Both the position numbers and the translations under genes were made by a program. The notes beneath the pieces are model-generated. The model was not told where the DNA came from. It worked only from the letters and a program-made list of their open reading frames with translations, and ran no database searches. Below are positions 12,450-16,351 of a stretch of 34,075 nt of DNA, piece by piece (the first letter of the stretch is position 1; each line of letters starts with the position of its first letter). The stretch is taken from assembly GCA_002683345.1 (NCBI GenBank), contig NYSX01000088.1, positions 1 through 34,075 on the forward strand. Reading direction: 5' to 3'. The DNA comes from Flavobacteriales bacterium (GTDB lineage Bacteria > Bacteroidota > Bacteroidia > Flavobacteriales_D > Sanyastnellaceae).

Positions 12450-12468
12450 CTTTGTGGTGGAATTTGGG

Positions 12469-12543
12469 TGGGCGGTGAGGGACTCGAACCCCCGACCCCC
12501 TCGGTGTAAACGAGGTGCTCTGAACCAACTGAGCTAACCGCCC
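12469..12543 (-). tRNA. tRNA-Val(UAC)
   Basis: 75-nt cloverleaf on the minus strand. Acceptor stem GGGCGGT/ACCGCCC, D arm GCTC...GAGC, anticodon stem CCTCG/CGAGG with loop TTTACAC giving anticodon UAC (valine), T arm GGGGG-TTCGAGT-CCCTC and discriminator A. The 3' CCA is not encoded (the bases after A73 are CCC). All stems are consistent; one G-U pair lies in the T stem. A TATCTTCG element sits 8 nt upstream and a terminator 20 nt downstream, so it is a single-gene unit. Confidence 0.96.
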
Positions 12544-12580: not shown

Positions 12581-13432
12581 ATGGCCGACCATCATGCATC
12601 CCTCGCGTCTCGAACACCGTCTTTGAAGGACCGGTGGTTGCGCTTTCGGGACACCCGTCTGGTGGCACCATGGTTGGGAACCTCTTGGCGAAAGTTGCAT
12701 TCGCCCACCCTGTTTACGTGGGGGAGGGCCCTTCAATCCAATCCCAAACATTGGCCCCATTCTGCCCCGGTGGAGGAGGATGCCATCGACGCCATCGCGG
12801 CGTGGCGGACGCAACTGAGCCGCACGAGCGACCTTGTCGTTCGTCGTGATTTGGGGGCGGGTGAGCGCAAGAGCGGGAAGAAGCAGGCAACGGTGTCTGT
12901 CCAAGACATGGCATCGCGGGCCTTGACGCCCGAGGAGGATGCACGCGCCCTTGGTCGTTGGCTCCGATGTGTTGCACCCAAGGGGCGGTTTTTGGAGTTG
13001 GGCACATCGCTCGGAGTCATGTCCGCCCACGTGGCGGCCACAGGTTGGGACGTGGAGACGTGGGAGGGATGTCCCCAGACCTTGGCTTGGGCCCAAAAAG
13101 GGTGGGACACGCTGGGATGTTCCAGCGGCATTCACGCCCAATGCGGCAACTTCGTGGAATTGGTTGGCCGTGTGGGGAAAGGAGAATTCTGGGACGTCGT
13201 GTACTTGGACGGGTTTCACGAGGAAGGGGCCACGCTGCATTTGGCAGATGCGTTGGCGCCTCATGTGCGTGAGGTGCTTGTGATCGATGACATCGCCTGG
13301 AGCCATGGCATGCATCGCGCTTGGCGGGAGTTGCAGTCACGGCCTGAATGGCGGGTGAGTTTCTCTTGGCGTGGCAGGGGGTTTCTCCTCAAGGCACCAC
13401 ACATGCGGAGGCAGCATGTGCGGATGGCGTGA
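12581..13432 (+). CDS. Class I SAM-dependent methyltransferase, Bacteroidota family
   Basis: 283 residues. The C-terminal two thirds has a class I methyltransferase core: the SAM-binding motif LELGTSLG at 139-145, an acidic strand end WEGC at 161-164, and VVYLDGFHEE and VLVIDDIAWS in place of motifs III/IV, as in O-methyltransferase-3/YrrM-like enzymes. The N-terminus carries LHSP (39-42) and DLGAG (90-94). From memory, Bacteroidota relatives show 'HSPF' and 'DFGAG' at these places, so this appears to be a diverged member of that uncharacterised family. Substrate unknown. It is a single gene divergent from tRNA-Val. The 3' end is 91 nt before the next start, with a promoter-like element between. 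Confidence 0.8.
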   Translation: MADHHASLASRTPSLKDRWLRFRDTRLVAPWLGTSWRKLHSPTLFTWGRALQSNPKHWPHSAPVEEDAIDAIAAWRTQLSRTSDLVVRRDLGAGERKSGKKQATVSVQDMASRALTPEEDARALGRWLRCVAPKGRFLELGTSLGVMSAHVAATGWDVETWEGCPQTLAWAQKGWDTLGCSSGIHAQCGNFVELVGRVGKGEFWDVVYLDGFHEEGATLHLADALAPHVREVLVIDDIAWSHGMHRAWRELQSRPEWRVSFSWRGRGFLLKAPHMRRQHVRMA

Positions 13433-13468: not shown

Positions 13469-13502
13469 TTTGCGCCCAAACGCGTTCTTCTTGCTACCTT
13501 GG
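13469..13502 (+). promoter_or_regulatory. Promoter: TTTG - 22 nt - TACCTTGG
   Basis: TTTG at 13469-13472 and TACCTTGG at 13495-13502 are spaced by 22 nt, near the 19-21 nt usual between -33 and -7 elements in Bacteroidota. The ATG of the next gene is 21 nt further on. It would drive the small secreted protein and the overlapping histidine kinase. Confidence 0.5.
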
Positions 13503-13523
13503 AGGTCCATAAAACACACGGAC

Positions 13524-13970
13524 ATGAAAACTTGGATGATGACACTTGGCCTGCTGACCATGGCGGCCACCATGACAGCGCAAGATGCACGGATGGGCAG
13601 CAGGAATGACGGGAAAGGGGGCGCGCACCGCACCCACATCAATTCCGGCGAATTCTATGGCACATTGGTGGCATTCAATCAGTCCAACACGGAGGTGGTT
13701 CGCTTCAACATCGACGACGTGGTGATGCGGGCAACCCGTGATCCACAGTTCTTGTCTGCAACCAAGAAGCTCAAGACCCACCGTTTCGAAAGCACTTCAC
13801 AGGCGTTGAACGTGTTGGCATCTCATGGTTGGGTGGTGCGCTCCACCATGGTGTTGCGGGGCCGAAGTGGGGACGAACGTCACTACGTCATGGCTCGCCC
13901 CATGGATTACATTTTGCCTTTGACCCCATGGCTGGAAGAAGGTTCGAGAGACCGCTCTGGGCAGCGGTGA
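13524..13970 (+). CDS. Small secreted protein of unknown function
   Basis: 148 residues with a clear signal peptide (MKTWMMTLGLLTMAATMTAQ, cleavage near residue 20). The mature part begins with a short basic, Gly-rich stretch and then one small alpha/beta domain: a strand region EFYGTLVAF, a charged segment, and FESTSQALNVLASHGWVVRS followed by DERHYVMARP near the end. The 'ALNxLxxxGW' plus 'hYxxxR' pattern resembles small DUF4177-like domains, but no firm assignment is possible. The frame is open upstream to 13371, but that would overlap the methyltransferase gene and hide the signal peptide. The 3' end overlaps the start of a histidine kinase, suggesting a joint function. Probably periplasmic or extracellular. 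Confidence 0.72.
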   Translation: MKTWMMTLGLLTMAATMTAQDARMGSRNDGKGGAHRTHINSGEFYGTLVAFNQSNTEVVRFNIDDVVMRATRDPQFLSATKKLKTHRFESTSQALNVLASHGWVVRSTMVLRGRSGDERHYVMARPMDYILPLTPWLEEGSRDRSGQR

Positions 13971-14827
13971 CCCCAGGGGTTCGAGGCATTTGGCTCGTGC
14001 GCGTGCTTGGCGCGTATGTGCTTCTGCAATTCAGTTGGTGGGCCTACCTCCTGGCAAGCACAGGCGGCGCCCGCGAACGTTGGATGGTCCTCGGGGAGGG
14101 TTCTGTTTTTGCGGCCCTTTTGGTCCTTGGAGTGATGCGATTGGAGCGCAACTTCAGGCAAGAACGCATGCGTCTTGCCCGCGAACGCAATTTGCTTTTG
14201 GGGGTCACCCATGAGCTGAAGACCCCCCTCGCCAGCGTGCAGCTTGGCGTGGACTCTTTGAGGCGACTGAAGTTGTCCGAGGAGGACCGCGCCGCAGTGC
14301 TGGAAAACATGCAGAACGGCGTGCAAGATTTGGGTCACCGCGTGGAGGAGATGTTGGTCGCCACCCGGCTGCAACGCCAAACTGACGTGCAAGCGTCCAC
14401 CTTCGATTGGGGCGACATGCTTGACGAGGCCGTGGGGCGCGTGTCGGGCGTACAACGCGACCGAATCCGATTGCATCGCATCGAGGGTTCTCAAGAGGTG
14501 CGCGGCGACCGGGCACTTTGGGTACTGTCGGCATCCAACCTCATTGAAAACGCCTTGAAATACAGCCAAGGCGCTGTCGAGGTGCGGGCAGAGGTGATCG
14601 GGGCAGACGCGGTGCTGGAGGTGTGTGACGAAGGGGAGGGCATTCCCAAGGCTGATCGCGAGTCGGCCAAGGCGCCTTTTGTGCGGCTCAAGGAGGAAGG
14701 TTCGGGCACAGGTCTGGGACTGCACCTTGTCGCCCAGACGGCACTCTTGCACGGCGCCCTCATGGACATGCGCGACCTCGATCCTGTGGGTTTTGCGGTT
14801 CGGGTGGTTTGGCCTCAGGGACGTTGA
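13928..14827 (+). CDS. Sensor histidine kinase without an adjacent response regulator
   Basis: 299 residues from the ATG at 13928. Two membrane helices (about 20-43 and 53-70) are separated by a loop of only about ten residues, so there is almost no extracellular sensor domain. Then come a HisKA region with the phospho-acceptor His95 in THELKTPLASVQLG, an N box (SNLIENALKYS, Asn204 and Asn208), a G1 box DEGEGIP at 234-240 and a G2 box GTGLGLH at 260-266. It should autophosphorylate and pass phosphate to a response regulator, none of which is nearby. The ATG start overlaps the previous gene by 43 nt; a GTG at 13967 would overlap its stop by just 4 nt (GTGA) and shorten the protein to 286 residues, and is about equally likely. 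Confidence 0.9.
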   Translation: MAGRRFERPLWAAVTPGVRGIWLVRVLGAYVLLQFSWWAYLLASTGGARERWMVLGEGSVFAALLVLGVMRLERNFRQERMRLARERNLLLGVTHELKTPLASVQLGVDSLRRLKLSEEDRAAVLENMQNGVQDLGHRVEEMLVATRLQRQTDVQASTFDWGDMLDEAVGRVSGVQRDRIRLHRIEGSQEVRGDRALWVLSASNLIENALKYSQGAVEVRAEVIGADAVLEVCDEGEGIPKADRESAKAPFVRLKEEGSGTGLGLHLVAQTALLHGALMDMRDLDPVGFAVRVVWPQGR

Positions 14828-14848: not shown

Positions 14849-16351
14849 GTGAAAACGGCATTGATCATCCTGGACGGTTGGGGCCTCGGCAACGCCGACG
14901 GCAACAACGCGATTGAAGTGGCGCAGACGCCCTATGTGGACACCCTGAACGCCCACACCCCCCACGCCACGCTCCGGACAGACGGGGAGCATGTGGGCTT
15001 GCCTGATGGCCAAATGGGCAACAGCGAAGTGGGACACATGAACATCGGTGCGGGCCGTGTGGTGTACCAAGATTTGCTGCGCATCGACCGTGCTGTGGCC
15101 GACGGTTCCATGGCGAAAGAGCCCGTGTTGCAAGAAGCGCTTCGTGTCGCTTCAGAACCGGGCAAGCGCCTGCACCTCATGGGATTGGTGTCGCGTGGCG
15201 GGGTGCACAGCCAACAGGCCCACTTGCACGCATTGGTGGATGCCGCAGAGGCCGCAGGGGTGTCCGATTGTGTCATCCATGCCTTCACCGATGGCCGGGA
15301 CACCGCGCCTCAGATGGGCACGACCTACCTCGCCGATTTGGAAGCCCACTTGGAGGGCAAACAAGCCCAAATCGCCTCGGTGCACGGCCGCTACTATGCC
15401 ATGGATCGAGACAAACGCTGGGAGCGCGTGGCACATTCCTACCGCGCCTTGGTGGGAGAAGTCGAAGAGCGACATGCCTCTGCCGTGGAAGGGGTGCAGG
15501 CGCACTACGATCAGGACATCACCGACGAGTTTGTGGTGCCCTTCCAAATCGAAGGCGTCGACGGCCACATCCGTCCCGGGGACGTCGTCCTCTGCTTCAA
15601 CTTCAGAACAGATCGCTGCCGCGAAATCACCCAAGCCCTGACGCAGCAGTCGTTCCCCGACCAGAACATGGCGCCGCTGGACTTGCACTACGTCACCATG
15701 ACCAACTACGACGAGAGTTTTGAAGGGGTGCACGTGCTGTACGACAAGCCCAATTTGGTGAACACCTTGGGCGAGGCGGTCAGTGCCCAGGGCCGAACCC
15801 AGCTCCGGATGGCGGAAACCGAAAAGTATCCCCACGTGACGTTCTTCTTGAGTGGGGGGCGTGAGGAGCCCTTCGAAGGGGAGCAGCGCACCATGGCCGC
15901 GAGTCCCAAAGTGGCCACGTACGATTTGCAGCCGGAGATGTCGGCACCTGAGCTCACCGAGAAGGCCGTGGAAGCCTTGACGTCATGGCAGCCCGATTTT
16001 CTCTGCTTGAATTTTGCCAACCCAGACATGGTCGGCCACACCGGCGTGTTTGAGGCAGTGGTGAAAGCCGTCGAGACCACCGATCGGTGCCTGAAGAAGG
16101 TGATGGAAACCGCCAAGGCCGAGGGGTACGCCGTGGTCGTCATTGCGGACCACGGGAATGCCGACCTCGCGCGCAACACCGACGGCACGCCGCACACAGC
16201 GCACACGACCAATCCGGTGCCGATTTGGGTGCACGGTCCAGAGGGAATCAAGGTGAGCGACGGCATCCTCGCGGATGTCGCCCCAACCGTCCTTCAATTG
16301 ATGGGCTTGAATCAGCCTGCCGAGATGACCGGAAGGTCTCTCATTGGATAA
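14849..16351 (+). CDS. gpmI: 2,3-bisphosphoglycerate-independent phosphoglycerate mutase
   Basis: Mn-dependent glycolytic enzyme of the alkaline phosphatase superfamily that interconverts 3- and 2-phosphoglycerate. 500 residues, close to the usual 510. Metal site DGWGLG at 9-14, catalytic serine Ser59 in GQMGNSEVGHMNIG, then the inserted transferase domain with HAFTDGRDT and the arginine-rich FNFRTDRCREI, and the C-terminal metal ligands in NFANPDMVGHTG and VIADHGNAD. The start is GTG at 14849: the protein begins KTALIILDGWG, exactly the family's N-terminus, and no ATG is available in that place. It is convergent with a large secreted-protein gene only 6 nt away. Confidence 0.97.
   Translation: MKTALIILDGWGLGNADGNNAIEVAQTPYVDTLNAHTPHATLRTDGEHVGLPDGQMGNSEVGHMNIGAGRVVYQDLLRIDRAVADGSMAKEPVLQEALRVASEPGKRLHLMGLVSRGGVHSQQAHLHALVDAAEAAGVSDCVIHAFTDGRDTAPQMGTTYLADLEAHLEGKQAQIASVHGRYYAMDRDKRWERVAHSYRALVGEVEERHASAVEGVQAHYDQDITDEFVVPFQIEGVDGHIRPGDVVLCFNFRTDRCREITQALTQQSFPDQNMAPLDLHYVTMTNYDESFEGVHVLYDKPNLVNTLGEAVSAQGRTQLRMAETEKYPHVTFFLSGGREEPFEGEQRTMAASPKVATYDLQPEMSAPELTEKAVEALTSWQPDFLCLNFANPDMVGHTGVFEAVVKAVETTDRCLKKVMETAKAEGYAVVVIADHGNADLARNTDGTPHTAHTTNPVPIWVHGPEGIKVSDGILADVAPTVLQLMGLNQPAEMTGRSLIG

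Follow-up and report, generated by a model that had tools for sequence, protein, structure and literature searches.

The stretch of DNA analysed here, referred to as the window, is 34,075 nt long and comes from a Flavobacteriales genome that is 73% complete. On its forward strand, an open reading frame at 13524..13970 encodes a small exported protein of 148 amino acids, and the gene overlapping its end codes for a histidine kinase of 299 amino acids (13928..14827, forward strand, with ATG 13928 as the favoured start), in which the Pfam domains HisKA and HATPase_c both score above their cut-offs. The first-pass annotation had described an exported protein of 148 residues whose gene overlaps a kinase gene, and both are present at these positions. 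The small gene is preceded by a conserved methyltransferase-like gene (12581..13432, forward strand), which has a weak match to Methyltransf_24 below the cut-off, and the kinase gene is followed by gpmI, coding for a phosphoglycerate mutase (14849..16351, forward strand; TIGR01307, 655.8 bits). A tRNA-Val is encoded on the minus strand at 12467-12543, just before the methyltransferase-like gene.

Two lengths had been proposed for the overlap, 43 nt with ATG 13928 as the kinase start (13928..13970, forward strand) or 4 nt with GTG 13967, from which the kinase frame would run to 14827 and code for 286 amino acids. Six other genomes of the genus have an ATG at the position of ATG 13928 and one has a GTG, giving overlaps of 40-43 nt, whereas at the position of GTG 13967 the three aligned relatives read ATA, GTA and GTA. 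As ATG 13928 is kept in the relatives and GTG 13967 is not, the longer overlap is favoured over the shorter one; this start-codon conservation makes 43 nt the most likely length of the overlap, with the 4-nt GTGA as a side effect of the TGA stop codon. Among the ten same-genus loci, the window included, the overlap is 40-43 nt in eight, 4 nt in one (G007) and 0 in one (G001). Outside the genus, the small gene and the kinase gene are mostly 0-170 nt apart and do not overlap. In one genome (G010, L070:1433-2209), the kinase open reading frame is only 258 amino acids long and residues 105-188 of the window kinase are unmatched, which reflects either a deletion or an assembly fault.

Judged by eye, the N-terminus of the small protein (residues 1-19, 13524..13580, forward strand) resembles a signal peptide that ends between TMTA and QD, and, also by eye, there is no cysteine for a lipobox. 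Residues M1, K2 and Q20 are invariant in the 10 aligned sequences of the genus. In an AlphaFold model of the monomer, which has low-confidence ends, a confident domain of strands, helices and strands spans residues 40-129 (about 13641-13910, forward strand), with pLDDT values of 82-96 over the block of residues 41-130. Using VIA, the best matches among solved structures were KCTD1 (Z 8.1), KCTD8/12/16 (6.1-6.5) and GFRP (6.0), and the top 16 rows comprised KCTD1/8/12/16, GFRP and a kinetoplastid protein with Z scores of 5.6-8.1, whereby a Z near 8 is borderline and also common without kinship, and a Z of 6-8 may reflect only a common arrangement. The first 17 rows of a Foldseek search were KCTD1 and KCTD12. 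Sequence identity to the KCTD1 and GFRP structures is 10-15%, and when solved structures were searched by sequence with the small protein, the best E value was 0.1. The small protein is therefore predicted, from these structural matches, to fold like GFRP and the C-terminal domain of KCTD1, which are pentameric regulators, although this fold gives no certain function. It should be kept in mind that the likeness concerns the monomer, the form in which the small protein was modelled, and that GFRP and KCTD1 are eukaryotic proteins whereas the small protein is bacterial. As described in the literature, the KCTD1 C-terminal domain and GFRP have a common fold, are both pentameric, and GFRP acts as an allosteric metabolic regulator (PMC7618933). 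Membership of the small protein in DUF4177 (PF13783) was considered and rejected, as it scored 14.2 bits against a gathering cut-off of 25 bits; the match is also weak in homologues, being seen in 8 of 20 at E <=0.5 with a best value of 0.00037 (21.1 bits), all below the cut-off.

Two hydrophobic helices of the kinase are separated by roughly ten residues, in agreement with the first-pass description of two membrane helices with about ten residues outside. In a structure model of low confidence (mean pLDDT 63), which was used for the helix ends only, these helices span residues 16-44 and 48-96. The region contains a putative intramembrane input module, Y30-x3-Q34-x2-WW37/38 ... M53-x2-GE56/57-x3-F61 (13985..14209, forward strand), which ends just before the phospho-acceptor His95 (14210-14212). 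Across the order, Y, Q, W, W, M, G, E, F and one L are invariant in 27 aligned modules, and in a sequence outside this alignment (L073 of G023) WE replaces GE. By the positive-inside rule, the WW and GE pairs would be located at the outer ends of the helices. When 150 genomes of the order were searched with a profile of the module, 127 gave one strong match each (E <=5.9e-18), and the sole further match among those listed was at 7.4e-4. The phospho-acceptor histidine follows GE at a distance of 39 in 59 of the 60 loci measured, the exception (27 in L107) being a pattern artefact, and the distance from WW to GE is 19 in the window genus and 27-44 elsewhere. This second distance was rejected as a correlate of linkage to the small gene: linked and other loci (25 vs 35) did not differ overall (p 0.45), in a test that kept L063 (45) and L107 (49), both of which are linked and pattern artefacts, and in which L073 was unmeasurable.

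Kinases that sense within the membrane have been defined by two helices, an extracytoplasmic linker of under 25 residues and the absence of an extracytoplasmic domain (PMC4388633). All of this applies to the window kinase, and some of its relatives outside the genus may exceed the linker limit with their WW-GE distances of 27-44. We conclude that the kinase belongs to a family of histidine kinases, probably of the intramembrane-sensing type, which extends across the order with one copy per genome, and that the part which the kinase retains is the module and not the small protein. The WW/GE signature is found in kinases with and without the small gene, which suggests that sensing most likely takes place in the membrane and that the small protein is an optional modulator. 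It had been proposed that the kinase is unable to sense by itself; this proposal is not supported, as the same two-helix module is present in 127 of 150 genomes and the small gene lies immediately upstream in 22 of these 127.

In the following, f1 denotes the family of the window genome and f4 a second family. Nine of the 10 other genomes of the window genus carry both genes in the same order, which is more than chance; the tenth (G006, 80% complete) has no kinase match and a weak match to the small protein (E 0.066). A sample of 80 genomes included 49 of f1, 42 of them with a kinase match at E 1e-20. Of these 42 genomes, 22 have the small gene directly before the kinase, 3 have it nearby (one gene between, or inverted) and 4 elsewhere in the genome, and in 13 it was not found near the kinase, the last class including G016, in which the contig begins at the kinase, and G043, for which the surroundings were not fetched. 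In the four genomes with the small gene elsewhere (G014, G020, G028 and G039), it stands by the methyltransferase gene and away from the kinase, whereby in G014 both genes are near contig ends and may be linked after all. The usual order in f1 is methyltransferase, small gene, kinase and gpmI. Of 61 loci, 49 have gpmI as the first gene after the kinase, and two of the remaining 12 run off their contigs. In the 150-genome sample, the 22 genomes with the small gene immediately upstream are divided between f1 (14) and f4 (8), the small gene is one gene away in 2 more of the 127, and it was not seen beside the kinase in any sampled family other than f1 and f4.

In f4, a small exported gene is present just upstream of the kinase in 8 of 8 genomes of the 150-genome sample; the proteins of four of them (G051, G062, G069 and G075) were part of the search alignment and the other four were outside it. 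On a PorX tree with 62 rows, the root of which serves for drawing only, a fully supported branch separates f1 from f4, f4 is placed beside f2 (support 92), and linkage of the small gene needs at least 6 changes. We also considered the linked f4 proteins as the nearest relatives of the window small protein and rejected this, since in hhalign comparisons the f1 small proteins were closer to unlinked exported proteins of other families (E 1.9e-19) than to the linked f4 proteins (9.9e-11). The small gene may have come to adjoin the same kinase on two occasions, and such a double origin would favour a functional tie between the two, short of proof. The pair stands without gpmI in four f4 neighbourhoods and in others where the downstream side is visible. 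In addition, a different methyltransferase-like gene was seen by eye in f4 (L079, L087, L091, L145 and L146), divergent and beside the small gene, and the profile of the f1 gene does not match it.

Whether linked to the kinase or not, members of the exported family were found at E 1e-5 in 46 of the 127 genomes with the kinase module, in one copy each, and in none of the 23 genomes without the kinase (Fisher p 1.3e-4, relatives treated as independent). Within f1 alone, it was found in 20 of 35 genomes with and 0 of 6 without the kinase (p 0.02). With another profile and a threshold of E 0.01, partial N-terminal matches appeared in the kinase-less genomes G048 (0.005) and G070 (0.007), which we read as signal-peptide matches. 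An exported family of about 120 amino acids, DUF4177-like below the cut-off, is present in several families of the order (L152-L162, e.g. L160:5114-5467), with one copy per genome where found and apart from the kinase there.

The first-pass annotation had also pointed out that no response regulator is encoded next to the kinase, and BLASTP searches with two regulators of the window genome, PorX and an OmpR-type protein, likewise found none in the kinase neighbourhoods L062-L121 and L143-L147. The OmpR-type regulator is an orphan encoded at C31:3451-4155 (L164:952-1656, L233), beside menaquinone-type genes, and it scores below the cut-off of every named NCBIfam model among those listed. These two orphan regulators of the genus were tried as candidate partners. 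For the OmpR-type protein, orthologues (E <=1.5e-51) are set apart by a clear gap from other regulators (>=3e-42), and E <1e-45 was taken as the threshold for an orthologue. Of the 118 genomes of good quality (completeness of 90% or more, contamination of 5% or less), 101 have both kinase and regulator, 2 the kinase only (G045 and G165), 1 the regulator only (G053) and 14 neither, so that the regulator is also missing from 14 of the 15 that lack the kinase (Fisher p 3e-15 for the co-occurrence, relatives treated as independent). In all 150 genomes, the corresponding numbers are 117 with both, 10 with the kinase only (one of them, G089, with a regulator fragment), 4 with the regulator only and 19 with neither, where the kinase-less state of G153, G158 and G161 was assigned by absence from the listed module matches. 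The joint absences fall into four groups (g10, g18, f8 and f13), and the starred branches of the PorX tree provide three independent pairs, which differ in the same way 2.6 times on average and in the opposite way 0 times; this number of pairs is too small for a sign test. PorX does not follow the kinase, as it is present in 143 of 150 genomes and in 15 of 15 good kinase-less ones, and it was rejected as the partner. Judging from these co-occurrence patterns, the partner of the kinase is most likely the orphan OmpR-type regulator encoded elsewhere in the genome.

The regulator is near a MenD-like gene, assigned by BLAST clustering, in 11 of 19 neighbourhoods, which belong to f1, f4 and, in one case, f2, and no such gene was clustered in the other 8, from f1 (2), f3, f6, f9 and f11. 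In two regulator loci searched with Pfam (L238 and L243), genes for a TPP enzyme and a chorismate-binding protein, which we take to be MenD and MenF, are present in both and a gene for a 4HBT thioesterase in one.

Based on these results, we propose, at about even odds, that the kinase is an order-wide membrane-sensing kinase with a distantly encoded OmpR-type partner, and that the small exported protein is its accessory modulator. The input would be received by the membrane module, in which the two adjacent tryptophans would stand near the outer end of the first helix and GE at that of the second, the latter at a fixed spacing to the phospho-acceptor histidine. The kinase would then phosphorylate the orphan OmpR-type regulator, which in f1 and f4 is encoded beside menaquinone biosynthesis genes. 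The small protein, made from the same operon as the kinase in at least two lineages, would adjust the kinase from the periplasm through contact with its helices at their outer ends. One might speculate further that the order has an envelope switch of three scattered parts, in which the kinase reads the membrane through a WW/GE pocket, perhaps by way of menaquinone, and a periplasmic GFRP-like pentamer, attached independently in separate lineages, sets its gain, a version that we regard as a long shot; the one reason to think of menaquinone is that the regulator adjoins MenD-like genes.

Other explanations need to be weighed against this proposal. The small protein had been suggested to be the periplasmic sensor or ligand of a kinase unable to sense alone. 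The linkage agrees with a functional connection of this kind, as the two genes are adjacent in 22 of 42 f1 and 8 of 8 f4 genomes and overlap in the genus, the exported family is absent from the 23 kinase-less genomes searched, and the WW-GE spacing is shortest in the window genus (19 vs at least 27 elsewhere, the value of 45 for L063 being an artefact). Conserved co-occurrence, which had been named as support for such a pair, does extend beyond the genus, but the observation that had been named as its refutation, kinases routinely found without the small gene, was made as well: 13 of 42 kinase-bearing f1 genomes have no small gene near the kinase and only 22 of 127 in the 150-genome sample have it immediately upstream. 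An obligatory sensor is thus quite improbable.

The small gene could instead be a translational device whose translation drives that of the kinase, as in cbrX-cbrA, while its protein does something else. The 43-nt overlap in the genus would fit, and CbrX acts by being translated and not via its sequence (PMC6591292). However, outside the genus the genes are mostly without overlap, with gaps up to about 170 nt, and yet adjacent, and the exported small protein forms a conserved domain with a confident predicted fold, so that we find this explanation very doubtful. It is also unlikely that neighbourhood inertia accounts for the adjacency, in which case methyltransferase, exported protein, kinase and gpmI would form a general cluster and the small protein would have no functional tie to the kinase. 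The frequency of gpmI as the next gene after the kinase (49 of 61 loci) and the four genomes that have the small gene near the methyltransferase gene and away from the kinase are in line with such inertia, whereas the f4 pair stands without gpmI and beside a methyltransferase-like gene that is, by eye, a different one, and the exported family was found in 0 of 23 genomes where the kinase is missing.

The proposed accessory modulator of a membrane-sensing kinase resembles known systems in part. In the SaePQRS system of Staphylococcus aureus, SaeR is encoded with the kinase SaeS, and SaeP is a lipoprotein, whereas the small protein of the window has no lipobox. Like the window kinase, SaeS has two helices and a short linker, of nine residues, without a sensor domain, and SaeP and SaeQ lower its kinase activity (PMC4388633). 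This likeness rests on architecture, as the WW/GE signature was left out of the comparison. In the enterobacterial QseE-QseG system, an envelope accessory protein binds and activates the kinase (PMC12691602), but the sensor domain of QseE, residues 38-171, is periplasmic, and the window kinase has only about ten residues outside. The cbrX-cbrA pair of Pseudomonas putida resembles the window pair in that a short gene overlaps the start of the kinase gene, and the two are translationally coupled (PMC6591292); however, the overlap there is 17 nt and CbrX is predicted to be a membrane peptide of two helices, whereas the small protein is an exported folded domain. The claim of a new sensory pair was too strong, since short-loop kinases that depend on extra components are known, namely SaeS, LiaS and BceS (PMC4388633). 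The principle of a short-loop kinase with an accessory protein is thus known; within the literature searched, novelty lies in the combination, in the predicted fold and in the dispersed arrangement of the genes. No description of the kinase family or of a GFRP-like periplasmic protein was found in the open-licence literature among the matches listed. The analysis turns a local curiosity into an order-wide signalling system that is open to testing. An orphan kinase present almost throughout the order is given, by prediction, a regulator as its partner and a site of sensing, and with them an exported protein as an optional modulator, the predicted fold of which is known above all from pentameric regulators of eukaryotes. 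Should the link to menaquinone be borne out, this would be a sensor of respiratory quinones in a large bacterial order.

PorY, the kinase of the T9SS, is likewise a Bacteroidota kinase encoded apart from its regulator. However, the window kinase reaches 51.3 bits with the PorY model (NF052314) against a curated cut-off of 350, and it was rejected as a member of this family. None of 11 genomes searched contained a protein that reached the NF052314 cut-off, and PorX in the window group may therefore use a kinase other than PorY. The PorX orthologue itself is encoded at L163:367-1944 on contig C23 (NF052313, 747 bits). Further regulators of the genus, named by eye, are of the NtrC type in L170 and LytTR-like in L165 and L168.
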